The notes under the pieces: generated by a model
Seen by the model: the letters and a program-made list of their open reading frames with translations, nothing else
Databases searched by the model: none
Told to the model about the DNA's origin: nothing
Translations under genes and position numbers: made by a program
Part shown: one piece after another, positions 35,366 to 56,209 of the stretch
Position numbering within the stretch: position 1 is the stretch's first letter
Layout of the letters: every line of letters starts with the position of its first letter
Assembly: GCA_017554745.1 (NCBI GenBank)
Contig: JAFZHS010000008.1
Coordinates: 62,001-126,000, forward strand
Direction: 5' to 3'
Source of the DNA: Clostridiales bacterium
Lineage (GTDB): Bacteria > Bacillota > Clostridia > Saccharofermentanales > Saccharofermentanaceae
DNA: 64,000 nucleotides

Positions 35366-35450
35366 AAGTCCAATGCGCATGCTTTAGACTTAGCATAGAT
35401 AAACCAACTTTGTTAAAATGATAAACGACATACATAAAGGAGAGATTAAG

Positions 35451-36092
35451 ATGAAAAAGATAAGGATCACAGCTTTATTGCTTGGCGTTGTAATGCTCTT
35501 GGGCGCTTCGGGTTGTTCTTCGGCTGAGAAAGAGACAGAGGCCGTTACCGAGCAGCCTGCCGCAACATCTGAAAACGCAACGGCTGAAGAGTCTTCTGAA
35601 GCTCCGGTTGAAGTGATTACAGAGCCTTTAACAGATTATCTTGCAGGCCATGAGACTTTCGAGCTCACGTCAGAAGATCTTAAAAACGGCGTCTGGGATG
35701 ACGTCATTTCATATACTAACAAGGGCGAGAACGTATCCCCACAGCTTTCATGGGCTCCGGTCGAAGGCGCTTCCACATATGTAATTATCATGGTCGACAC
35801 TTCTGTAAATTCCTGGATCCATTGGAAGACCGACGCTGCAACAGAGACTGAACTTCCCAGAGGATGGGCTCCTTCTTCTGATTACATCGGACCGTATCCG
35901 CCGAGCGGTGATACACACGTTTATGAGATCTATGTCGTGGCACTGCGTGCGCCTGTCGAAAAGGTCAAGGGCGTATTAAATGCCACGAATCCCAAATTCG
36001 CGACAGCCATCACGGATCTTGATACTGACATCGACGGCAATGCAGGCAATATTGTCGCGTACGGCCACATTGCGGGCAAGTTCACAAGCTGA
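35451..36092 (+). CDS. PEBP/YbhB-type lipoprotein
   Basis: 213 residues from ATG 35451, set by AAAGGAGAG; an ATG 33 bases earlier lies before this site. Lipobox GASGC, an acidic/Thr spacer, then a phosphatidylethanolamine-binding-protein fold (NVSPQLSWAPVEGASTYVII, DTSVNSWIHWKTDA, GPYPPSGDTHVYEIYVVAL). The bacterial YbhB/YbcL family has poorly known ligands. Surface-anchored. Followed by a clear terminator. Confidence 0.87.
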   Translation: MKKIRITALLLGVVMLLGASGCSSAEKETEAVTEQPAATSENATAEESSEAPVEVITEPLTDYLAGHETFELTSEDLKNGVWDDVISYTNKGENVSPQLSWAPVEGASTYVIIMVDTSVNSWIHWKTDAATETELPRGWAPSSDYIGPYPPSGDTHVYEIYVVALRAPVEKVKGVLNATNPKFATAITDLDTDIDGNAGNIVAYGHIAGKFTS

Positions 36093-40002: not shown

Positions 40003-41145
40003 ATGAGACGAATAAAGATAGCATCATTTGTTTTGGCAGCAATGATAACATTCACGGTGCTGGAGGCGTGCGACTGGCAGGAGCAGAGGCCGGAAGATGC
40101 AATAGATATTTCAGTTGCAGAGTCCGAACTGATCGAATCACTGAAAGCCGAGGGCAAGGACGATATCGAGATCGCCGAAGCATTAGTAGCTTATGAGGAC
40201 GAACTTAGCAGGGCGGCTGAAAGTGAAGAAAGCATTGCTGAAGCAGTCAGCGGAACAGACGAATCGGTTATCGGGACAAACGAAGTTGTTGCAGATCAGA
40301 CTGATATTTCGGAGGCAGTACAGACAGATCCTTCCGAATCAGCAAGCGTAACTGCAGCTGCTTCTAATCCGACAGGTGCTGCGGCGGCAACGTCAACATC
40401 CAATCCTTCGTCAGTAACTTCAACAACTGCAAAACCTACGGCTACTGCAAAACCTTCAGCAGGTTCTGCAACGCCAAAACCGACTGCAAATGTCACGACG
40501 ACAACAACGCCAACTGCAACGCCCAAACCCACAGAGGCGGAAAGTTATTACGATACTGACTGTGAGGCGGAGTGCGTAAGGCTGATCAACCAGCTGCGCA
40601 AGGAATATGCGGTTGAGGAAAAGCTCACTTTCTATGTGCCGGTCGTAAATAACCTTACATCAAGAGCACATACGCGATGTGATGAGCTCGTCGATGATTT
40701 TTCGCATAATTCTGTCAGCGGCAACAGTGGTTGGGGTGAAGCAATTTACAGAGGAAGAGGCGGAACACCTTCTGCATCAAGTATAGTAAGGGCATGGAAA
40801 AATTCGCGCGGACACTACGCGCTTTTGCTTTCCGGTTGCGTTATGGGCACGGGTGATTACGCCAGCATAAACTGCGGAATGGGTGTTATAAGAGTTGGAG
40901 ATTATACATATGCGGTTTTCGGTACGACAGGAGGTAACAGCGGTAAATCACCTTCGTCAGGATATGTCGCTCCTACGAGTACGCCTACGCCGGTGCCGAC
41001 AAATACGCCGGTCCCTACAGATACCACCGTTCCTACGAACGATTCTTTGCCAACGGAGACACCTGAACCGACAAATACTCCCATCCCTACGAGTACGCCG
41101 GTTCCTACAAAGCCAACGATTGACCCTGACGAAATTGAAATATAG
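40003..41145 (+). CDS. CAP-domain lipoprotein with Thr/Pro-rich linkers
   Basis: 380 residues. Lipoprotein signal with LEAC. A long acidic then Thr/Ala/Pro-rich stretch (about 30-185), a CAP/SCP-like domain (about 185-320: ECVRLINQLRKEYAVEEKL, RAHTRCDELVDDFSHNS, GEAIYRGRG, VMGTGDYASINCGMGVI), then a TPTPVPTNTPVPT tail. CAP domains occur in secreted proteins of spore formers with unclear roles. Strong GGGAGG ribosome site. The TP-rich style is shared with the three FecR proteins that follow, suggesting a common cell-wall environment. Confidence 0.8.
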   Translation: MRRIKIASFVLAAMITFTVLEACDWQEQRPEDAIDISVAESELIESLKAEGKDDIEIAEALVAYEDELSRAAESEESIAEAVSGTDESVIGTNEVVADQTDISEAVQTDPSESASVTAAASNPTGAAAATSTSNPSSVTSTTAKPTATAKPSAGSATPKPTANVTTTTTPTATPKPTEAESYYDTDCEAECVRLINQLRKEYAVEEKLTFYVPVVNNLTSRAHTRCDELVDDFSHNSVSGNSGWGEAIYRGRGGTPSASSIVRAWKNSRGHYALLLSGCVMGTGDYASINCGMGVIRVGDYTYAVFGTTGGNSGKSPSSGYVAPTSTPTPVPTNTPVPTDTTVPTNDSLPTETPEPTNTPIPTSTPVPTKPTIDPDEIEI

Positions 41146-41173: not shown

Positions 41174-41359
41174 ATGAAAAATATGATCAATATATATTGG
41201 GACAGCGAGGCGACGGTCTACGTTGCGACGAGCGACATTATTCCCGGCATGTGCTATAAGGCTGAGACCTTTGATGAGCTGATGGACAAGGTGCGGTACA
41301 ATGTGCCGCGCATTATCCGGGTGAATAAAAACGTTAAGGAGACTGACTACTGGTACTGA
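41174..41359 (+). CDS. DUF1902-like small protein (HicB-like fold)
   Basis: 61 residues: MKNMINIYWDSEATVYVATS and DIIPGMCYKAETFDELMDKV match DUF1902, the small HicB-type domain usually found as an antitoxin or regulator. TGAGGAAT upstream provides a ribosome site. No HicA toxin is adjacent, so it is an orphan. It lies 28 bases after the CAP gene and just before the first nested-hairpin repeat. Confidence 0.72.
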   Translation: MKNMINIYWDSEATVYVATSDIIPGMCYKAETFDELMDKVRYNVPRIIRVNKNVKETDYWY

Positions 41360-41677: not shown

Positions 41678-43375
41678 ATGGCTTTGATTAACGTTTTCAA
41701 GAATCTTTCCAAGAAAACTAAGATAATTATGGCTGTTGCCGCGGTGGCTGTTATTGCCGGTGCCGTGACATTAGTCGTGCTGGGCCGTAGCGGTTACACT
41801 GCCACGACAATGAGACTTCTCAGAGTCGAGGGAACGGTCAATATCGAAGATTCAAAGGGCGGCACCAAGCCCGTTATAGATAAGATCAGATTCCAGTCCG
41901 GAGATGCATTGAATACAGGCAATGACGGCCTTGCTTCAGTAGGCTTGGATGATACAAAGATCGTTACTCTCCAGACAGACAGCCGAGTTGAATTTCAAAA
42001 GCAAAATAAGAAGCTTGAGTTAAAGCTTACGAAGGGCGCGCTGTTTTTCGAAGTAATGGAGCACCTTAAGGACGATGAGACTTATGAGATCCACACATCG
42101 AACATGACCGTAGGTATCAGAGGTACCTCAGGTTATGTCTATTACGATGAGAGTGATAAGAGAGAATCGCTCGTAGTTACTGACGGTATTGTTGAAGTAT
42201 CAGCGACGAATCCCGTTACAGGTGAGACAAAAACCGCCCGGGTTGAAGGCGGCAAGCAGATAAAAGTTTACCTCTATTCCGACAGGACGGAAGATACTGT
42301 CGAGTTCGAGCTTAGCGATGTCTCTGAAGAGAGCCTCCCCGAATTCCCTCTTCAGAGACTCGCCGAGAACGAAGAACTTCTCGACCGAGTCTGTGAGTTC
42401 ACGGGCTGGGATAAGGAAAAACTCCTGGATGTCATTAATGATGCTATCGAAGAAGAAAATAAAGAAGAAATAACTCCTACAGCCACTCCTACTGAGGAGG
42501 CTACTCCTACACCTGAACCTGTCGGTGGAACGCCTGAAGGCCCCTCTGCACCGACTATAACGCCGCCGGTTTCCATAACGCCGACGGCAAAGCCAACAGG
42601 CGCACCGACGGGTTCAGTAACATCAGCTCCGTCTGCAAGACCTACAACAACCGCAGCACCGACACCTTCGTCTGCGCCTACCACAACACCGACAGCTATG
42701 CCGACGTCATCGGCTACGCCTACGGCAACTCCTACCGCAACCGCTACTGCTACGGCGACGGCGACTCCTACTGCTACACCCACTGTGAAGGCAACGCCTA
42801 CCCCGAAGCCGGGATGTGAGATTACGGATTATGCCTGGGATGTTGAATATGAGGGTACGACTGTTTTCGTTTGCCAGAACGTTTCCGGCGATGATTACCT
42901 GTACTACGGCTATATTGACGGAAACTGGGTAGAGCTTGAGCAGCAGGCTTTTGCCGGCAATGGCTGGTGCTATGTATATTTCAAGGACAAAGCGACCGGT
43001 GAAAACTACTATGACGGTTACATGTATAAATATGAAGTTGTAATGCCGACTGTACCGCCTGAGAATACTCCGACATCTACGCCGACTCCTGCAGCACCGA
43101 ACTTCAATTGTGTCCCTTCTGATTCAGATATCCTTGAAGGCCACGAAAAGGCCGGTAACTGGGGCACTATGTGCGACGGCCATCCTGTCTACATAATCTT
43201 TATTAAGGAACCCACGGAAAACAACGGATATAGTTACACTGACTATCGCGCATATGTTAATTATGAATGGGTCAAGCTTTATGGCGCTTCAGCTGGCGAT
43301 ATTCTTGCCGGCAATACTCCTTATAATTTCTACATAATGAACGGCGAAGAGAAGGTTGTGTATTTCCACAATTAA
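41678..43375 (+). CDS. FecR-domain surface protein 1 with TP-rich linker
   Basis: 565 residues from ATG 41678 (AGAAGGG nine bases upstream). One N-terminal membrane helix (about 13-35) anchors the protein; an extracytoplasmic FecR domain follows (about 40-205: [54 protein letters not shown]). Next is a Thr/Pro/Ala linker (about 265-390), then two C-terminal aromatic modules (YAWDVEYEGTTVFV...YYGYIDGNWVEL). FecR domains read DNA- or ligand-linked surface signals in other systems; no TonB partner exists in Gram-positives, so its role here is unknown. Confidence 0.82.
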   Translation: MALINVFKNLSKKTKIIMAVAAVAVIAGAVTLVVLGRSGYTATTMRLLRVEGTVNIEDSKGGTKPVIDKIRFQSGDALNTGNDGLASVGLDDTKIVTLQTDSRVEFQKQNKKLELKLTKGALFFEVMEHLKDDETYEIHTSNMTVGIRGTSGYVYYDESDKRESLVVTDGIVEVSATNPVTGETKTARVEGGKQIKVYLYSDRTEDTVEFELSDVSEESLPEFPLQRLAENEELLDRVCEFTGWDKEKLLDVINDAIEEENKEEITPTATPTEEATPTPEPVGGTPEGPSAPTITPPVSITPTAKPTGAPTGSVTSAPSARPTTTAAPTPSSAPTTTPTAMPTSSATPTATPTATATATATATPTATPTVKATPTPKPGCEITDYAWDVEYEGTTVFVCQNVSGDDYLYYGYIDGNWVELEQQAFAGNGWCYVYFKDKATGENYYDGYMYKYEVVMPTVPPENTPTSTPTPAAPNFNCVPSDSDILEGHEKAGNWGTMCDGHPVYIIFIKEPTENNGYSYTDYRAYVNYEWVKLYGASAGDILAGNTPYNFYIMNGEEKVVYFHN

Positions 43376-43434
43376 GCTTTTCGAGCAGAAGACCAAAAAC
43401 GGGCAGCTGATTTTGAGCAAAATGCTCTCGAACG

Positions 43435-43446
43435 GTATGCTACAAT
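43435..43446 (+). promoter_or_regulatory. Probable extended -10 of second FecR gene
   Basis: TGCTACAAT at 43438-43446 upstream of GGGGGGATG and the ATG at 43493. No good -35. Confidence 0.35.
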
Positions 43447-43492
43447 CGAAAAAGATGCGTACGACACAAAGAACACTCGGGGGGATGATCTT

Positions 43493-45706
43493 ATGTCAGT
43501 GATCGAAAAAATTAAGAGTTTACCTAAGGCGAAAAAGATCGCTTTCGCAGGCATCGGCGCGGCCTTGATCGTGGGCATCATTGTGGCCGTCATCCTGATA
43601 TGCAACAGCGGTTATACCGCCACGACCATGAGACTCCTCCGTGTAGAAGGATCGGTCAATATTGAAGACTCGAAGGGCGGCTCGAAACCCGTTATCGATA
43701 AGATAAGATTCCAGTCCGGTGATGCGCTTAACACAGGTGCTGACGGACTTGCATCAGTAGGTCTTGATGATACGAAAATCGTCACGCTCCAGTCTGACAG
43801 CCGTGTGGAATTCCAGAAGCAGAACAAGAAGCTTGAATTGAAGCTCACAAAGGGCGCACTGTTTTTCGAAGTAACCGAGCATCTTAAAGATGACGAGGTC
43901 TACGAGATCCACACATCGAACATGACTGTAGGTATCAGAGGTACGTCCGGTTATGTTTACTACGATGAGTCCGATAAAAGAGAATCACTCGTTATCACTG
44001 ACGGCGTAGTAGAAGTATCTGCGACCAACCCTGTTACAGGCGAGACAAAGACCGCAAGAGTAGAAGGCGGTAAGCAGATAAAGGTCTATCTGTATTCTGA
44101 CAGAACAGAGGACACGGTTGAGTTTGAACTGAACGAAGTAACGGAAGAAACAGTTCCCGAGTTCGCACTCCAGAGACTGGCTGAGAACGAAGAGCTCTTA
44201 GACAGAGTATGCGAATACACAGGCTGGGACAAGGATAAGCTGATCGAAGTATTAGCGGATGCTATTGCAGAGGAGACTTCCGAATCAACAGAGGAGCCTA
44301 CCCCTACACCTACTCCTGATCCTGAAGACGTAGGCGATCCTACAGATACGCCGGCACCAACGATAACGCCTCCACCTACCGCGACGCCGACTGCAACTCC
44401 GACTGCGAGACCGTCAGGAGCACCGACTGTTACTCCTACGGCAGGAGCAACATCAACGGCAACAGCAACACCGACAGCTGTTGCTACACCTACTGCCAAG
44501 CCTGAGATTACACCTGAGGCCGGATACACTAAGTCGGCTGTTTGGGGCGAAGAATATCATAACAGTATGGTCTATATGGAGACTAAGGGCGATGGAAGCG
44601 ATAAGGTTTACAGAGGATATGTTGAAGGAACAGGCTGGGTTAATCTTGACGAAGATGTATTGAATTCAAACGGTGCAGGGGACTACTACACCTATTACAT
44701 AGAAGGCACCGAAGACGTTTACTATAGCTTTAAAACAGCCCCGCAGGCACAAATTACTGCCACAGCAACTCCTACAGCTACCGCGACACCTTCTGCTAGT
44801 GGCCCGAGTGTACCATCCGGATATGTAAAGTCATCTTGGTGGGGCACTACTTATAGCGGTTCAACGGTATACATTTGTCAACTTGATAATGCCGGCGCAG
44901 CTGAGGATTATGGCAAAGGAATCCCTCAATACAGAGGTTACTCCAATGGAGACTGGTACGATCTTAGTGGTCCTCAATCAGAAAATACCTTTACCGTAAA
45001 AGTCTTCCAATATGTATATTATTCGGATGACTACGTAGAAGGACCTGGGCTCCCGGCGGTTTCGATGGATCCTGATGCGTATAGTGATGATCAAAAAGCA
45101 GACTTTGCATGGGATAAAACTTATGATGGCCATAAGGTCTACGTATTGCAGTCCGGTTCTTCATACAGTGGTTATTATGATGGAAACTGGTTTGAACTAA
45201 AACGCACCCAAGATAATGCAACAATTACTTATACATTCGCCGGTTCTACAAAAGTTTATTATGAGTACTCTGTTAGGATTACTATAGCTACTCACACACC
45301 GACGCCTACCGTAAAAATATCTATTGTTACTCACACACCGACGCCTACCGTAAAAATATCTATTGCAACTCAAACACCGACTCCTTCAGCAGGCACGGCT
45401 GTTCAAGCTCCTACATATTACGGCGGCACATGGCACGAATCAGATGAGAATTATTGGGCCCCATATGTAACTGATATTACCGGCCCGGGTGGAACAAAAT
45501 ATGACCTTGATTTGATCAGGACTACAGATAAAAACGGAAATGAGTGTTTTTATTGTCAAGATGTTTGGAACGATGAGACTAATCGTTATGAAGATGATAA
45601 CGGTTTTTACTATCGAGAGGGGAATACTCTATATTCGGTGCCATCTGAACTGTGTCGTGATGTAACCGATGTTATGAACGAATACTATACCCTTCATGAC
45701 CCGTAA
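43493..45706 (+). CDS. FecR-domain surface protein 2, multi-module
   Basis: 737 residues. Same plan as protein 1: a membrane helix (about 14-36), FecR domain (about 40-205) nearly identical in amino acids though its DNA differs at many synonymous sites, TP-rich linker, then three aromatic modules (SAVWGEEYHNSMVYMETKGD; SSWWGTTYSGSTVYICQ; FAWDKTYDGHKVYVLQSGSS) joined by TP segments and a 13-residue repeat (THTPTPTVKISI), and a distinct C-terminal domain (YYGGTWHESDENYWAPYVTD). Ribosome site GGGGGG. Followed by a strong terminator. Confidence 0.8.
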   Translation: MSVIEKIKSLPKAKKIAFAGIGAALIVGIIVAVILICNSGYTATTMRLLRVEGSVNIEDSKGGSKPVIDKIRFQSGDALNTGADGLASVGLDDTKIVTLQSDSRVEFQKQNKKLELKLTKGALFFEVTEHLKDDEVYEIHTSNMTVGIRGTSGYVYYDESDKRESLVITDGVVEVSATNPVTGETKTARVEGGKQIKVYLYSDRTEDTVEFELNEVTEETVPEFALQRLAENEELLDRVCEYTGWDKDKLIEVLADAIAEETSESTEEPTPTPTPDPEDVGDPTDTPAPTITPPPTATPTATPTARPSGAPTVTPTAGATSTATATPTAVATPTAKPEITPEAGYTKSAVWGEEYHNSMVYMETKGDGSDKVYRGYVEGTGWVNLDEDVLNSNGAGDYYTYYIEGTEDVYYSFKTAPQAQITATATPTATATPSASGPSVPSGYVKSSWWGTTYSGSTVYICQLDNAGAAEDYGKGIPQYRGYSNGDWYDLSGPQSENTFTVKVFQYVYYSDDYVEGPGLPAVSMDPDAYSDDQKADFAWDKTYDGHKVYVLQSGSSYSGYYDGNWFELKRTQDNATITYTFAGSTKVYYEYSVRITIATHTPTPTVKISIVTHTPTPTVKISIATQTPTPSAGTAVQAPTYYGGTWHESDENYWAPYVTDITGPGGTKYDLDLIRTTDKNGNECFYCQDVWNDETNRYEDDNGFYYREGNTLYSVPSELCRDVTDVMNEYYTLHDP
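45291..45380 (+). repeat. 39-bp in-frame tandem repeat
   Basis: Two nearly exact copies from 45291 and 45330 plus a partial third from 45369, encoding THTPTPTVKISI-type units inside FecR protein 2. Long enough to vary in copy number by slippage. Confidence 0.8.
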
Positions 45707-45721
45707 CAACGAACTTTAAGA

Positions 45722-45765
45722 ATGGCCGGCTAAACACTTCAGAGCTTAGCCGGCCATCTTATTTA
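45722..45765 (+). terminator. Rho-independent terminator after FecR protein 2
   Basis: Twelve-base perfect stem ATGGCCGGCTAA / TTAGCCGGCCAT, 12-base loop, then CTTATTTA. Separates FecR 2 from FecR 3. Confidence 0.88.
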
Positions 45766-45776
45766 GATGTCTTCTA

Positions 45777-45785
45777 TGATATAAT
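45777..45785 (+). promoter_or_regulatory. Extended -10 of third FecR gene
   Basis: TGATATAAT (45777-45785) downstream of the terminator and 44 bases before ATG 45829. No clear -35. This makes FecR 3, the cyclase and the GGDEF gene a separate transcript. Confidence 0.5.
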
Positions 45786-45828
45786 AATATATGTGGTCAA
45801 TTAACCTTTAGCGGGGGAGGCATTGCTT

Positions 45829-47238
45829 ATGAGCCTGATCGACAAAGTTAATAGTTTATCCAAGAAAACCAAGATTTTTATTGTTGCTGCTACACTTGTT
45901 GTAGTGGTCGGCATTGTGGCAGTTATTGTTCTTTCGGGGAACAAATACACGGCTACAACTATGAGACTCCTTCGTGTTGAAGGAACGGTCAATATCGAGA
46001 ATTCAGCAGGTGAGATCAAACCTGTCATGAATAACATCAGATTCCAGTCGGGAGATGCTCTCAGCACCGGCTTTGACGGACTGGCTTCGGTAGGCCTTGA
46101 TGAGACCAAGATCGTTACTCTTGAATCGAACAGCAGAGTCGAGTTTACCAAGAGCGCTAAGCAGCTGGAGCTCAATCTGACCGATGGCGGCATGTTTTTC
46201 GAAGTCACCGAGAAACTTAAGGATGACGAGACTTTCGATATTACGACATCCAACATGACCGTCGGTATCAGAGGAACATCGGGTTATGTTAGAGCCAACT
46301 TAAAGAGTGGCAGTACACTATTACAGCTTACGTCCGGACATGTCACCCTCAAAATACCGCATCCAGTAACGTTAAAGGATGAAAGTGTTTCATTAAGTGC
46401 CGGTCAACAGGCATTGATCATGCAGAAAAAGGTTAACGGTGAAGTAAAAAACGAAGTTGTAGTAAGCAAATTTACTGCGAAAGATTTACCTGCGTTTGCA
46501 GCAAAGAAAATTCTGGAAAGTTCTAAGATTCTCAATGAAGTTGTTCAAGGATCAGGAATTACGAAAGACGATTTATTAGCACGTGCCCAAGGTGCAGCTG
46601 CTAATCTAAATGACGGAACAGAAGATCCTGAGCCTACAGTAACGGCTACACCTACACCTACGGATGCTCCTGAGGGTGGCGACGATCAAGCTACTACTCC
46701 GACGGCAACACCTACTATAACTCCGCCTGCTACGGCGACGCCGACTATTACTTCGGCACCCACGATAACGCCGAAGCCGACGGCGACATCAAAGCCTGCG
46801 GCAACTACTAAGCCGACAGCTACAGCCACACCTACAGCTGCTCCGACTACCGCTACAGCTACTCCGACAGCAAAGCCTACAGAGACTGCTACACCGACTG
46901 CTACGGCTGCGCCGACAATGACGGCGACTCCAACAGCTGAACCCACTGCTACTGCGACGCCGACAGCGAGCGCAACTGTCTCACCGGAGGATGGATTCAG
47001 CAAGACACGTATGTGGGACATAAGAGATGAAGATTATGATTATGTAATCTACATTGAGTGTCAGGATAACGAGACCTACCGCGGATATTATAACGGGCGG
47101 TGGATCAATCTTGATTATGTTGAAGAAGAAGATGACGATTTGCTTTTTGAGCGGTATTATGCAGACGGTTTCATGTACTACGAAGATGTATCATCGAAAC
47201 CATCAGATAATCCTCCAATCTATGAATCAACAACATGA
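45829..47238 (+). CDS. FecR-domain surface protein 3
   Basis: 469 residues from ATG 45829 (GGGGGAGG eight bases upstream; the TTG six bases earlier is too close). Membrane helix (about 13-35), FecR domain (about 40-210) that diverges from proteins 1 and 2 after [11 protein letters not shown], a different C-terminal half of that domain, then a TP-rich linker (about 265-385) and one aromatic module ([36 protein letters not shown]). It is 21 bases from the CHASE2 cyclase, so it is the best candidate for a direct partner of the cyclase. Confidence 0.8.
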
Positions 47239-47259
47239 GTTTTACAGTTTGATTAACCT

Positions 47260-49083
47260 ATGAAGAAAAGTAACACCAAGACTCTTGTTGCCTCTCTGGT
47301 TGGCGCGCTCGCGATTACCGTGCTTTGTGGTTCGGGTGTGTTCAGCCGTGCTGAATTGTGGCTGAGCGATGAGCTTTTTCAGCGCCGCGAGGCTGTGCCG
47401 GGCGATATTGTAGTCATTGGTATTGATGAGAGCGACTTCCAGGCTCTGGGTCCGTATAACACTTGGGACAGATCTGTTATGGCAGCCGCTCTTGATGCGC
47501 TTGCATCTGATCCTGACAATCTTCCTGCAGTTGTTGCGATCGATACGCTCTATGCAGGTTATACCAGTGAAGAAGCAGATATGGCATTGGCTGAATCCGC
47601 TGCAAATCTCGGTACTGTCATCACTGCGACGGAAGCACATTTCGGAACTCAGAGAACGTTTGGCACGACTGTTGTCATTAACGATTACGCTATCCTGAGT
47701 TATGAAGAGCCTTACGATGAGCTCAAGGATGTTGCCGTTGAAGGCCACATCAATGCGATGTATGACAACGACGGCGTTATGCGCCATGCGGTCATGTACA
47801 TTGAGCCTGAAGGCGATGGCGGAAGACGCGTCTATTCTATGGCTTATGAGACGGCTTCTGCCTATGCGAAAACAAAGGGCATGACCATTGAGAATCCGCC
47901 CATTGATTCAAGAGGACGTTTCTATGTTTCATATACCGGCGGCCCGTCGGATTTTTATGACGGCATCTCGATAAGCAAGCTGATAAACGGCGAAGTGCCT
48001 TCGTCTTACTACGCAGGCAAGATCGTTCTTATCGGACCTTATGCGCCCGGTCTTCAGGATGCTTATTTCACACCGATCGAAAGAGGCGAGATGATGTACG
48101 GCGTCGAGTATCAGGCCAACGTTATCCAGTGCCTTTTGGACGGCAATTATAAAGTCGATGCGCCTGATTTTATCCAGCTCTGCGTGCTGTTCCTCGTATG
48201 CTTTGCATTCTTCCTTTTCTGCAATAACAGAAGACTTCTTTTCGCAGTGCCCGCACTGATAATCTGCGAGGCTGCGGCTATCGGGTGCTCCTTGATGATC
48301 TACTCGATGGGTTACATAACACACGTGCTTTGGATCCCGCTTGGACTTTTCGTGCTGTTCGTAGTCAGCGTCGCGTCCAACTACATCCGCGCCGCCATCG
48401 CGAAGCAGAGCGTTACCAAGACTTTCGAAAGATACGTTGCACCTAACATCGTAGGTGAGATCCTCAAGGAAGGCACTGATGCGTTGAAGCTCGGCGGCAA
48501 GACTGTTGATATCGCGGTTCTTTTCGTTGATGTCAGAGGCTTCACGACGATGTCGGAGAGACTCTCGCCTGAGGTAGTCGTTAAGATCCTCAACAGGTAT
48601 CTCACGATGGCGAGCGCCTGCGTTGATGACACCAAGGGTACGGTCGACAAGTTCGTCGGTGATGCCATGATGGCTTTCTGGGGCGCGCCCATCGATGACG
48701 ACGATCCGGTCTACCATGCAGCTGTTACTGCTTTAGGTATTGTTGAGGGCGCGAAAAGGATCTCCGCAGAACTCAAAGAAGAGATCGGCGAAGAACTCAA
48801 CGTCGGCGTCGGCATCAATTACGGCCCTGCGGTCGTAGGCAACATGGGTTCTGAAAAACGAATGGACTACACAGCCATCGGTGATACGGTCAACACGTCT
48901 GCAAGACTTGAGGCCAACGCACCCGGCGGCACCGTATATATCAGCCGTTCCTGCGCTGACAGGCTCGAAGGCCGCATGAGATACGAGCCTTTGGATCACC
49001 CGATCAAGCTCAAGGGTAAGGCTGACGGATTTGAGATACTGAGACTTATCGGACCTGTTGAAGGTTCTGAGAAGGAGGAATAA
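47260..49083 (+). CDS. CHASE2-class III adenylate cyclase
   Basis: 607 residues. A membrane helix (about 8-28), extracytoplasmic CHASE2 domain (about 32-300), three more helices (about 305-375), then the cyclase domain (about 415-600). Metal-binding Asp424 and Asp468, adenine-reading Lys464 and Asp536, transition-state Asn545 and Arg549 are all present (LFVDVRGFTTM, DKFVGDAMMAFWGAP, MDYTAIGDTVNTSARLE), so it should make cAMP. CHASE2 senses an outside signal; the neighbouring FecR protein 3 is a natural candidate for input. No good ribosome site; probably coupled to FecR 3. Overlaps the next gene closely. Confidence 0.9.
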   Translation: MKKSNTKTLVASLVGALAITVLCGSGVFSRAELWLSDELFQRREAVPGDIVVIGIDESDFQALGPYNTWDRSVMAAALDALASDPDNLPAVVAIDTLYAGYTSEEADMALAESAANLGTVITATEAHFGTQRTFGTTVVINDYAILSYEEPYDELKDVAVEGHINAMYDNDGVMRHAVMYIEPEGDGGRRVYSMAYETASAYAKTKGMTIENPPIDSRGRFYVSYTGGPSDFYDGISISKLINGEVPSSYYAGKIVLIGPYAPGLQDAYFTPIERGEMMYGVEYQANVIQCLLDGNYKVDAPDFIQLCVLFLVCFAFFLFCNNRRLLFAVPALIICEAAAIGCSLMIYSMGYITHVLWIPLGLFVLFVVSVASNYIRAAIAKQSVTKTFERYVAPNIVGEILKEGTDALKLGGKTVDIAVLFVDVRGFTTMSERLSPEVVVKILNRYLTMASACVDDTKGTVDKFVGDAMMAFWGAPIDDDDPVYHAAVTALGIVEGAKRISAELKEEIGEELNVGVGINYGPAVVGNMGSEKRMDYTAIGDTVNTSARLEANAPGGTVYISRSCADRLEGRMRYEPLDHPIKLKGKADGFEILRLIGPVEGSEKEE

Positions 49084-49085
49084 AG

Positions 49086-50792
49086 ATGCTGACGTTTTTC
49101 GGCAGAGGCTCTGCATTTTCGGATCAGCAAAACAGTGCTTACTTTGAGGACAACAACGATCTCATCCTGATCGACTGTCCGATGGATTCTTTCGACATTC
49201 TGAAGAAGTGGGATCTTACAAAGTATAAGCATATCTACATTCTTGTTACGCATACTCACGGAGATCACATAAGCGGAATCGGAATGCTCGTTGACCTGCT
49301 TTATTTCCTCGTGCACATTCCCGTTACGATCGTTGCTCCCTGCGAAGAAGTCAGGAAAGACCTTAAATATATGCTCTCGAGGCTCGAAGGCTGCAACGAC
49401 TTCTGGTATGAGCTTATTTCCTGTGAAGAACTGAAGAAGACATGGTTTAATTGTTCCATTCCGACTGATCACTCTCCTGAGCTCAAGGGAAGATGCTATG
49501 GATACAATCTGAAGATCCAGGGCAACAACGTTGTCTATACCGGCGATACTAATACTACCGCGCCTTACGAGAAGTATCTTGCTGACGGCACATATCTTTA
49601 TATCGAGATCTCCGCGCACCGTTCGAATGTGCATCTTTACTATGAAGACCTGATCCCGAAGCTCAAGGAGTATCTTGCAAAAGGCGTGAAGGTCTATCTC
49701 ATGCACATGGACGATGAGAAGAAGGTACTTGATAAGGTAAGTGATATCGATGTTAAGCCCGCGCCTCTCGTACACGAGGTCGTGCTGGGAGATAATTCCA
49801 CGATCCTTAACAGCATTCTTGATATCACGGACAGCCTCTACAAAGACATGTGCATGAACGGCAGTGATGATCACAACCTTCTTTTCACGTATCTTACCGA
49901 TCTCGCGAAAACGATCGTTGATGCTGACCGCGCAAGCTTCTGGAAGTGGGATAAGAGAAAGCGCCAGATATGGACTATGTCCGCGACGGGCGTGGATAAA
50001 CTTGTCATTTCAGACAGGACGGGTCTTGTCGGCAAGGCTTTGAAATACCAGAAGACCATCATCACGAACGATCCTTATAACGATCCTGATTTTAACCACG
50101 AGATCGACATCAAGACAGGCTATAAGACCAAGTCAGTAATGGTCCTTCCGGTAGCAGATATCAACGGCAATTTCATAGGCGCTCTGCAGCTCATAAACAA
50201 GAAATCTGACAGAGGTTTTGATGAGGGAGATATCAAGAAACTCTCGCTTGCTGCATTGATCTGCGGTATTGCTCTTGAGTCTGAGACATTCCTCGAAGAC
50301 TCACATCACGACAAGCTCACAGGCCTTAAGAACAGGATGGGTTTCTATTACGATTTCGGAGGCAAATACAAGGACTATCTTATTCCCGATTCGGGTAAGG
50401 TCATGTCTGTCTTTATCGGCGATATCGATAAGTTCAAGCGCGTCAATGATACATACGGCCACAACGCCGGCGATGACGTCCTGAGATTTGCGTCAGAGCT
50501 CCTCGAATCTGCATGCGGTGACAACGACGGCCTTTACAGATGGGGCGGCGAAGAGTTCGTAATGGTAATGCGTGATACCGATCTTGACGGCGCAGTAAAG
50601 AAGGCCGAAGCGATGAGGCTCAAACTCATGGATTCCGATATCGATGCAGACGGCACTATCATCAGATGCACGATGAGCTTCGGTTGTGCTCTTTTCGATC
50701 CCACGAAAACGATCGAAGAGAATATCAGTGCTGCAGACGAGAGACTTTACACCGCGAAAGAAACCGGAAGAAACAAAGTCTGCTGGGAGTAA
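49086..50792 (+). CDS. MBL-GAF-GGDEF triple-domain protein
   Basis: 568 residues, soluble. Residues 1-245: metallo-beta-lactamase fold with THTHGDH (55-61) and further ligands in YTGDTN and LMHMDD, RNase Z/phosphodiesterase-like. Residues ~255-400: GAF sensor. Residues ~405-568: diguanylate cyclase with GGEEF (487-491), no canonical RxxD inhibitory site. GGEEF is usually catalytically active, so it should make cyclic-di-GMP. An MBL domain in front of this is unusual. Starts two bases after the cyclase gene, so the cAMP and c-di-GMP enzymes are made together. Confidence 0.88.
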   Translation: MLTFFGRGSAFSDQQNSAYFEDNNDLILIDCPMDSFDILKKWDLTKYKHIYILVTHTHGDHISGIGMLVDLLYFLVHIPVTIVAPCEEVRKDLKYMLSRLEGCNDFWYELISCEELKKTWFNCSIPTDHSPELKGRCYGYNLKIQGNNVVYTGDTNTTAPYEKYLADGTYLYIEISAHRSNVHLYYEDLIPKLKEYLAKGVKVYLMHMDDEKKVLDKVSDIDVKPAPLVHEVVLGDNSTILNSILDITDSLYKDMCMNGSDDHNLLFTYLTDLAKTIVDADRASFWKWDKRKRQIWTMSATGVDKLVISDRTGLVGKALKYQKTIITNDPYNDPDFNHEIDIKTGYKTKSVMVLPVADINGNFIGALQLINKKSDRGFDEGDIKKLSLAALICGIALESETFLEDSHHDKLTGLKNRMGFYYDFGGKYKDYLIPDSGKVMSVFIGDIDKFKRVNDTYGHNAGDDVLRFASELLESACGDNDGLYRWGGEEFVMVMRDTDLDGAVKKAEAMRLKLMDSDIDADGTIIRCTMSFGCALFDPTKTIEENISAADERLYTAKETGRNKVCWE

Positions 50793-50841
50793 TTGTTGTA
50801 AAGGAAAGTTTATTATTGTATTATTTAAACGATTGATGAAG

Positions 50842-50867
50842 CCTGTGCCTAAAAGCACAGGTTTTTT
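50842..50867 (+). terminator. Rho-independent terminator
   Basis: CCTGTGC / GCACAGG stem with a six-base loop and six Ts. Ends the cyclase-GGDEF transcript. Confidence 0.9.
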
Positions 50868-50904
50868 CAAAAAATAAGGGTAGAACTATATTAGGAGGTT
50901 GCGT

Positions 50905-55048: not shown

Positions 55049-56209
55049 ATGCAACTGGACTATACGTTTTATTATGTAGAGGCCAATATCGTCTGCATCA
55101 TCATTTTCGGAATGATGCTCATAAGAGAGATGGGTTCTGTCGGCAGACAGACCAAGCAGGTGATATTCGTCAACATCACTATAAGCCACATGCTGTATTT
55201 TATAAGTGACATAGCATGGGTGCTTATTCTTGCGGACATTATTCCTTATACAAGATTTGCAGTTGCAGCAGCCAATTTTATGAATGCTCTTTTGCTTTGC
55301 GCGATCACGGGTTTGTGGTTCGTATATGTTGAGATCTCGCAAGGCGAGCAATACATATCGTCCTTCAGAACACGCATGTATACTCTTGCTGCTGCGATAT
55401 TAGATCCGATCGTTATGCTGGCTCTTCTCTTGATCGTTCCCGGAAGCATTGTCACTGAAGACAAAGAGATGACTCCGCTTTATTACATACTTTTCCTGTC
55501 TGTGCCTGCTATGTACATTTGTGTCAGCGCTGTCAGATCTATCCGGAGGGCATTCCGGAAAGAGAATTACGCGGTCAGGAAACAATATCTCATTTGCGCG
55601 ATCTATCCTGTGATACTTACTATATTCGGCATCTGGCAGACACTGTGGCTCGCGGCACCGATCTTCTGCTTCGGCTGCGCGATCATGATGCTTTATGTAT
55701 ACATCATCTCGCTGAATGACCAGGTATCGATCGATGAGCTGACCCGCCTTAACAACAGGACGCAGCTTAAGAGGTTTGTCGCAAGTGAAGCGTTAAAGCA
55801 GAACACAGACAGGATGACGCATTTCGTGCTCATGATCGATCTGAATAAATTCAAGCAGATCAACGACCAGCACGGTCACGTCGAAGGTGACAACGCGCTT
55901 AAGAGAACAGCTGATGCGCTTAAACTATCTTGCGCCGATAACCCGTTTAGGACGTTCATCGCAAGGTACGGCGGAGACGAATTTATCATCATTGCAAAGA
56001 CTGACAAAGAAGATCTGATCAAAGAACTTTGCAGCAGGATCAAGTCCACGCTGATACGCTTAAATGATGAAGCAGGCGCGAAATACGAGCTCTCGGCATG
56101 CATCGGTTACGCATGCTACAATGGCGAACTCGACACATTCCAGATAGCACTTGCCGAGGCTGACGAAGCGCTCTACAAGGAGAAGGCTGAGCGCGGTGCA
56201 TCACGTTAA
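55049..56209 (+). CDS. Membrane diguanylate cyclase (GGDEF)
   Basis: 386 residues. Seven or so hydrophobic helices (about 10-215) and a C-terminal GGDEF domain with YGGDEF (GGDEF at 308-312) and preceding DELTRLNNRTQLKRF. No RxxD inhibitory site. It should make cyclic-di-GMP in response to a membrane signal. Own promoter with an extended -10 six bases before the ATG. Confidence 0.88.
   Translation: MQLDYTFYYVEANIVCIIIFGMMLIREMGSVGRQTKQVIFVNITISHMLYFISDIAWVLILADIIPYTRFAVAAANFMNALLLCAITGLWFVYVEISQGEQYISSFRTRMYTLAAAILDPIVMLALLLIVPGSIVTEDKEMTPLYYILFLSVPAMYICVSAVRSIRRAFRKENYAVRKQYLICAIYPVILTIFGIWQTLWLAAPIFCFGCAIMMLYVYIISLNDQVSIDELTRLNNRTQLKRFVASEALKQNTDRMTHFVLMIDLNKFKQINDQHGHVEGDNALKRTADALKLSCADNPFRTFIARYGGDEFIIIAKTDKEDLIKELCSRIKSTLIRLNDEAGAKYELSACIGYACYNGELDTFQIALAEADEALYKEKAERGASR

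Follow-up and report, generated by a model that had tools for sequence, protein, structure and literature searches.

What links three FecR surface proteins to an adenylate cyclase and a diguanylate cyclase in a rumen Clostridial genome, and how might the two second messengers be related? The question is raised by a 64 000-nucleotide stretch of Clostridiales bacterium DNA (assembly GCA_017554745.1, contig JAFZHS010000008.1, positions 62 001 to 126 000; hereafter the window), in which five consecutive genes encode FecR1, FecR2 and FecR3, a CHASE2-domain cyclase and a protein with metallo-β-lactamase (MBL), GAF and GGDEF domains. An earlier note on this DNA had observed that the five genes share one strand and had proposed that cyclic AMP (cAMP) and cyclic di-GMP (c-di-GMP) are raised together, in parallel. 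We confirmed all five open reading frames (ORFs) on the plus strand; the evidence favours, in place of parallel outputs, an action of cAMP on the c-di-GMP enzyme through a GAF domain of the cyclic-nucleotide type. Our overall reading, which seems to us about evenly poised between right and wrong, is of a conserved Clostridial envelope-sensing cassette with a serial cAMP-to-c-di-GMP relay and cAMP hydrolysis as feedback. Surface-anchored FecR would either pair with the extracellular CHASE2 domain or modulate it; the membrane cyclase would make cAMP; cAMP would bind the GAF domain of the MBL-GAF-GGDEF protein and turn its diguanylate cyclase on; and that protein's own MBL domain would hydrolyse cAMP, limiting the signal. 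Two tandem cyclic-nucleotide-binding (CNB) proteins related to PKA regulatory subunits may also read cAMP.

The earlier note would have counted as a refutation an arrangement confined to this genome, combined with ectodomains that neither bind each other nor alter cyclase activity; the first of these does not hold. Across 115 Saccharofermentanaceae genomes, CHASE2 occurs in 84, FecR in 81 and MBL-GAF-GGDEF in 85, and 63 of the 93 CHASE2 genes lie in a complete triad, with FecR upstream (≤9 kb; one to three matches) and MBL-GAF-GGDEF downstream (≤6 kb). The remaining CHASE2 genes have only MBL-GAF-GGDEF (10), only FecR (12) or neither (8), several of them at contig ends. MBL-GAF-GGDEF is present in 82 of the 84 CHASE2 genomes, and co-occurrence with CHASE2 is strong both for it (82/2/3/28, Fisher p 4e-21) and for FecR (79/5/2/29, p 8e-20), neither value being corrected for shared ancestry. 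MBL and GAF-GGDEF, one ORF at the window locus, are two ORFs in two genomes of the host genus (G064 and G074). The window's genome is of Saccharofermentans type, from the rumen, with 2.53 Mb in 31 contigs; its three FecR genes and one CHASE2 gene are all at this locus and none elsewhere. With the sole FecR and CHASE2 genes of the genome clustered and the linkage recurring in many genomes, the neighbourhood is beyond chance. The nearest named relative in the reference collection, a Saccharofermentans rumen metagenome-assembled genome (L048), has a cyclase 95% identical to this one. That one locus couples an enzyme for cAMP synthesis to one for c-di-GMP synthesis, as the earlier note had it, is supported by conserved linkage, with both activities predicted. 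A second type of CHASE2 and FecR locus was seen in sister species (L035, C594/F303; L036, C606/F303), with a 1000-aa surface protein between the two genes and no MBL-GGDEF.

The linkage is also seen outside the family. Neighbours were mapped with purpose-built hidden Markov models at 80 named loci, most of them from Lachnospiraceae, Oscillospiraceae, Butyrivibrio and Saccharofermentans, and representatives were checked by Pfam. Where at least 5 kb was available on both sides of the cyclase (42 loci), the same strand carried FecR in 35, MBL in 37, GAF-GGDEF or GAF-HD-GYP in 37, and all three in 29. Outside Saccharofermentans-type loci the MBL is a gene of its own, mostly of about 260–285 aa, and the c-di-GMP partner is a GAF-HD-GYP protein of about 480 aa; in four loci (L061, L067, L068 and L077) the partner is GAF-GGDEF (about 335 aa), again with a separate MBL. 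In Lachnospiraceae and Oscillospiraceae the parts of the proposed circuit are separate genes, usually with GAF-HD-GYP, and there cAMP would alter c-di-GMP degradation instead. Loci at which none of the partner genes was seen mostly lie on short contigs. Two, L094 and L095, were flagged as partnerless although 5 kb or more flanks the cyclase on either side, but the map of L094 includes a FecR ORF of very great length that fell outside the distance filter. At the level of the phylum (398 Bacillota genomes), FecR is found in 40 of 48 genomes with CHASE2 and in 7 of 350 without (p 1e-39, uncorrected for phylogeny). The two genes are at most 10 kb apart in 31 genomes, always on the same strand, with FecR mostly downstream, so that the order is mostly reversed. 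An NHL or SLH-NHL protein lies near the cassette in 24 of the 80 loci; such β-propeller surface proteins were noted beside it in L090, L091, L093, L094, L096, L099, L111, L117, L119, L120 and L126.

Within the window, two terminator-like hairpins, which go beyond the earlier note, divide the locus, one in the FecR2/FecR3 gap and one closing it (table 1). FecR3 ends 21 bp before the cyclase, and the MBL-GAF-GGDEF gene begins two bases past the cyclase stop, as had been described. Given the position of the hairpins, FecR3, the cyclase and MBL-GAF-GGDEF therefore likely form an operon, and FecR1 and FecR2 may be separate transcription units.

The three FecR proteins are anchored and stalked, in agreement with the earlier description. 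All match Pfam FecR above the cut-off (E 2e-11 to 7e-13, the latter for FecR1), and each consists of about 15–17 residues, a single N-terminal transmembrane (TM) helix, the FecR β domain, a stalk of roughly 85–130 residues with 54% Thr+Pro, and one or more C-terminal modules of about 60 aa. FecR2 is 82% identical to FecR1 across its first 260 aa. The module, also new relative to the earlier note, occurs in one to three copies with the pattern W..Y..VY..YRGYxxGxW..L, and all 28 module-bearing ORFs in the locus set are FecR proteins. In the AlphaFold model of FecR3 the FecR domain is followed by a helical bundle, a disordered stalk and a terminal folded β module; its FecR part resembles the anti-sigma periplasmic domains 4m0n and PupR 6ovk (Foldseek and VIA-align; VIA Z about 16). 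Searching with the whole-chain model gave no good match for the module (pLDDT about 80–93 there), the list being filled by the FecR domain and the module not searched separately, and we make no claim of a new fold. Pfam found no cytoplasmic N-terminal anti-sigma domain, only the short segment before the TM helix, and the classic FecI-FecR mechanism therefore does not apply. Among the neighbouring proteins scanned there was no extracytoplasmic function (ECF) sigma factor or TonB-dependent receptor; the genome was not searched for either. A role for FecR1–3 as anti-sigma regulators was rejected on the Pfam and TM predictions, and the earlier placing of these proteins outside a TonB/sigma relay holds, since they are without its defining anti-sigma part.

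That FecR acts on CHASE2 we infer from linkage, and the closest precedent supplies the main caution, by analogy, against naming FecR the sensor. In S. meliloti, the genes clr, cyaD1 and smc02177 encode the reader Clr, a CHASE2 adenylate cyclase and FecR; there smc02177 is a Clr target and dispensable for signal perception (PMC5498481). FecR might on this model be an output, an envelope protein of the cAMP regulon that lies near the cyclase because its expression is cAMP-controlled. The likely exclusion of FecR1 and FecR2 from the cyclase operon by the upstream hairpin fits that view, as does the CRP gene adjoining FecR in other Bacillota, but FecR3 sits directly before the cyclase and same-strand adjacency survives changes of gene order, as would be expected of proteins that interact physically; in addition, the CHASE2 enzymes linked to FecR include histidine kinases, whose output is not cAMP (PMC5192318). 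We consider the output explanation rather doubtful. S. meliloti does resemble the present system in having a CHASE2 cyclase with FecR and a CNB-type receptor, the cyclase-FecR-CRP set of other Bacillota being the same combination. It differs in that the reader is a CRP protein (Clr) and that the part of the source available mentions neither an MBL nor a c-di-GMP enzyme (PMC5498481). The Gram-positive genome studied here instead has GAF and tandem CNB proteins as readers, together with an MBL domain and an N-anchored FecR that carries a Thr/Pro stalk.

The cyclase matches Pfam CHASE2 (6e-41) and Guanylate_cyc (2e-23). Class III enzymes bind metals through two Asp residues (here D424 and D468), specify adenine through Lys and Asp (K464 and D542) and stabilize the transition state through Asn and Arg (N545 and R549). 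All six, which the earlier note had listed as complete, are present and invariant in 16 relatives from the family. On the basis of this intact active site the protein is predicted to make cAMP, and it is the genome's only class III cyclase (a single PF00211 match).

The MBL-GAF-GGDEF protein has Pfam matches to GGDEF (1e-35), Lactamase_B_2 (1.5e-8) and GAF_2 (6e-7). Its GGDEF A-site is intact: the GGEEF motif noted earlier is invariant in 21 relatives, and the model has the GGDEF fold. There is no canonical RxxD product-inhibition I-site, a feature optional in diguanylate cyclases and one on which the earlier note was silent; CGDNDGLYRW precedes GGEEF. No extracellular part is predicted and the protein therefore needs a cytosolic cue. 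The GAF domain offers a candidate receiver. Its nearest solved relatives are PmGH (7e-27), the cAMP-binding CyaB2 of Anabaena (3e-20) and the cAMP-binding GAF-B of human PDE10A (4e-15), with PDE5 GAF-A also among them, and its AlphaFold model aligns with PDE10A GAF-B at Z 22.0 and with CyaB2 at 20.6. CyaB2 contacts cAMP through R291, T293, I308, D356 and N359 (PMC4411481), to which R282, S284, S299, D341 and T344 correspond. R282, S284 and D341 are invariant in 21 relatives; the pocket Arg and Asp and four of the five NKFDE letters are kept, and three contact positions are substituted. By sequence class and fold the domain groups with the cyclic-nucleotide GAFs of CyaB2 (1ykd) and PDE10A (2zmf), and a cyclic nucleotide is its candidate ligand.

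For the MBL domain, all metal ligands are kept (H56, H58, D60, H61, H129, D154 and H207, invariant in 17 relatives), giving the HxHxDH, H, D, H set of Apyc1 hydrolases. The structure nearest to its model is 7fct (Z 25.1), followed by three Apyc1 cyclic-nucleotide hydrolases (7u2r, 7u2s and 7t28; Z 21.2–22.0 over 214–218 residues at 2.6–2.7 Å; sequence E 7e-5), from which it differs in having 18–23% identity to them and in being fused to GAF-GGDEF. The Foldseek and VIA-align lists for the protein consist mostly of GGDEF chains, and other MBL families are perhaps under-represented in them; a sequence search, independent of these lists, agrees on 7fct and Apyc1. The domain probably hydrolyses cAMP.

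Further candidate readers of cAMP lie elsewhere in the same genome, as two stand-alone tandem CNB proteins. For the tandem CNB tested, the PDB chains that come closest are regulatory domains of eukaryotic PKG and PKA (E 1e-18 to 1e-29), ahead of CRP, and both proteins have canonical phosphate-binding cassettes with Glu and Arg, such as FGEMAVIENYPRSST. Within the family the median number of CNB matches per genome is 4 with CHASE2 and 1 without, and many sister species have them in large numbers. A gene of the tandem CNB type lies directly upstream of the FecR genes in L039, L042 and L054, and among the matches listed there are further cases of CNB beside the cassette in G061 and G069. Across the phylum, a CNB gene follows cyclase-FecR in 8 of 15 loci examined; both of those tested by Pfam are CRP (CNB plus helix-turn-helix), and three more are CRP-like on reading. 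Both the linkage of tandem CNB genes and the presence of CRP beside cyclase-FecR in other loci speak for cAMP as the product in use. Other CNB fusions were seen near CHASE2, namely CNB-SpoIIE phosphatase and CNB-DUF2225, and one of the two tandem CNB genes has beside it a lipoprotein, PEBP-like by eye, that is related to another in the window, near the cassette.

It is on the strength of the cyclic-nucleotide-type GAF, the Apyc1-like MBL and the tandem CNB proteins that we read the two messengers as serial rather than parallel, a circuit that the observed residues, folds and linkage together suggest. Were the outputs parallel, FecR and CHASE2 would sense a wall or substrate signal, cAMP and c-di-GMP would rise independently, the GAF ligand would differ and the MBL would be a housekeeping-type hydrolase. 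The identical linkage data fit that scheme, GAF domains bind many ligands and 7fct is not annotated as a phosphodiesterase; the cytosolic cue that the GGDEF protein needs, the place of its GAF among cyclic-nucleotide GAFs and the company that the MBL gene keeps with the cyclase, fused or split, argue the other way, and we regard parallel outputs as unlikely.

Several observations nevertheless weigh against the serial reading. Relative to CyaB2, the GAF has T293 replaced by Ser, I308 by Ser and N359 by Thr, so that the preferred ligand may be either cAMP or cGMP, and a GAF-HD-GYP example (L063) has the pocket Arg replaced. The top MBL match, 7fct, is named simply 'metallo-beta-lactamase', and a literature search gave no substrate for it; the domain scores 17.2 bits against a Pfam Apyc1 (PF23023) cut-off of 50. 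The MBL from Lachnospiraceae shares only about 23% identity with that of the window, and the substrates may differ. No PilZ protein was found in the window's genome, and the co-occurrence tests above leave shared ancestry uncorrected. A search for c-di-GMP-I riboswitches gave no match, but its controls were equally blank and it is uninformative. With these points in mind, we put forward only tentatively, and at somewhat less than even confidence, the fuller proposal that the MBL-GAF-GGDEF protein senses cAMP, destroys it and makes c-di-GMP, that it is operon-wired to a FecR-governed CHASE2 cyclase, and that the tandem CNB proteins, resembling PKA regulatory subunits, read cAMP in parallel.

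An anti-phage locus of the Pycsar kind, with cyclase, cyclic-nucleotide effector and Apyc1-type hydrolase, was rejected as highly improbable. The PADLOC Pycsar cyclase models do match the cyclase domain (best E 1e-30) and the MBL fold resembles Apyc1, but the PADLOC matches extend no further than the catalytic domain that class III cyclases share. The enzyme also carries CHASE2 together with the Lys and Asp that specify adenine, neither a TIR nor a TM effector is encoded next to it, and the cassette, present in most species of the family, is not scattered.

The features are collected in table 1. Just upstream of FecR1 are a CAP-domain-like protein with Thr/Pro-rich stretches, below the Pfam cut-off, and a small DUF1902 protein; a separate membrane GGDEF protein lies 4 kb downstream of the cassette.

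Table 1. Coordinates of the cassette, its parts and other features (window positions unless a locus is given).
Feature	Position	Strand	Size or detail
FecR1	41678-43375	+	565 aa ORF
FecR1 TM anchor	aa 16-34
FecR1 FecR domain	41906-42196		followed by Thr/Pro stalk
FecR1 C-terminal modules	about 42818-43033, 43142-43372		two, ~60 aa
FecR2	43493-45706	+	737 aa ORF; architecture as FecR1
FecR2 FecR domain	43724-44014
FecR2 C-terminal modules	about 44525-44743, 44819-45061, 45092-45295		three
Terminator-like hairpin, FecR2/FecR3 gap	45717-45761	+	predicted -24.6 kcal/mol, then T-rich tail
FecR3	45829-47238	+	469 aa ORF; TM anchor
FecR3 FecR domain	46057-46344		followed by disordered stalk
FecR3 C-terminal module	about 46996-47196		one, folded
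CHASE2-cyclase	47260-49083	+	607 aa ORF
CHASE2 domain	about 47308-48159		followed by about three TM helices
Class III catalytic domain	about 48508-49020
MBL-GAF-GGDEF	49086-50792	+	568 aa ORF
MBL domain	about 49086-49778
GAF domain	about 49848-50285
GGDEF domain	about 50286-50789
Terminator-like hairpin, 3′ of MBL-GAF-GGDEF	50835-50868	+	-18.6 kcal/mol, T run
Tandem CNB protein	L144:1486-2397	+	303 aa
Tandem CNB protein	L145:865-1800	-	311 aa
Lipoprotein, PEBP-like by eye	35418-36092
Related lipoprotein, PEBP-like by eye	L145:1956-3056		beside tandem CNB gene
CAP-domain-like protein	40003-41145
DUF1902 protein	41174-41359
Membrane GGDEF protein	55049-56209
CNB fusions (CNB-SpoIIE phosphatase and CNB-DUF2225)	L160:5308-6486, L162:4749-5930

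Related systems are known from other bacteria. In Leptospira, the GAF-GGDEF protein LA3929 is activated by cAMP (da Costa Vasconcelos 2017, as cited in PMC5932348), so that the gating of c-di-GMP synthesis by cAMP proposed here has been demonstrated there; as described in that citing source LA3929 consists of GAF and GGDEF, whereas the window protein has a fused MBL and its gene lies beside the cyclase. A Campylobacterota cluster likewise combines FecR and a CHASE2 adenylate cyclase with a presumed cAMP phosphodiesterase, but with TPR genes, absent from the window locus, with FecR called an outer-membrane protein and, as described, with no c-di-GMP enzyme (PMC9239204). The Burkholderia BiofilmReg operon (response regulator, LysM-FecR COG4254 and CHASE2 histidine kinase) also sets a periplasmic FecR beside a CHASE2 sensor, with a histidine kinase output and a LysM wall-binding domain in place of the cyclase and stalk of the window (PMC5192318). 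FecR-CHASE2 linkage is therefore already published for Gram-negatives (S. meliloti, Campylobacterota and Burkholderiales; PMC5498481, PMC9239204, PMC5192318). What appears to be new is not this core pairing but the Clostridial parts list, with MBL, GAF-GGDEF or HD-GYP, tandem CNB readers and stalked multi-copy FecR. Our literature search turned up nothing on the Clostridial cassette or on a CHASE2 adenylate cyclase in Firmicutes, and a search on CHASE2 with Clostridia returned no title on such signalling.

cAMP signalling is little described in Clostridia, and the cassette would represent a compact two-messenger relay in gut and rumen members of the group, joining FecR, the presumed partner in the envelope, with a source of cAMP, a probable sink for it and an enzyme for c-di-GMP. 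It carries the prediction that cAMP controls c-di-GMP, acting on its synthesis when the partner is a GGDEF protein and on its degradation when it is HD-GYP. For the question of what CHASE2 domains sense, it offers FecR as a partner that can now be tested, the pairing being found again under different gene orders and with both cyclase and kinase outputs. If the fuller proposal is true, these Gram-positive gut bacteria would possess the whole of a cAMP-to-c-di-GMP converter, its feedback included.

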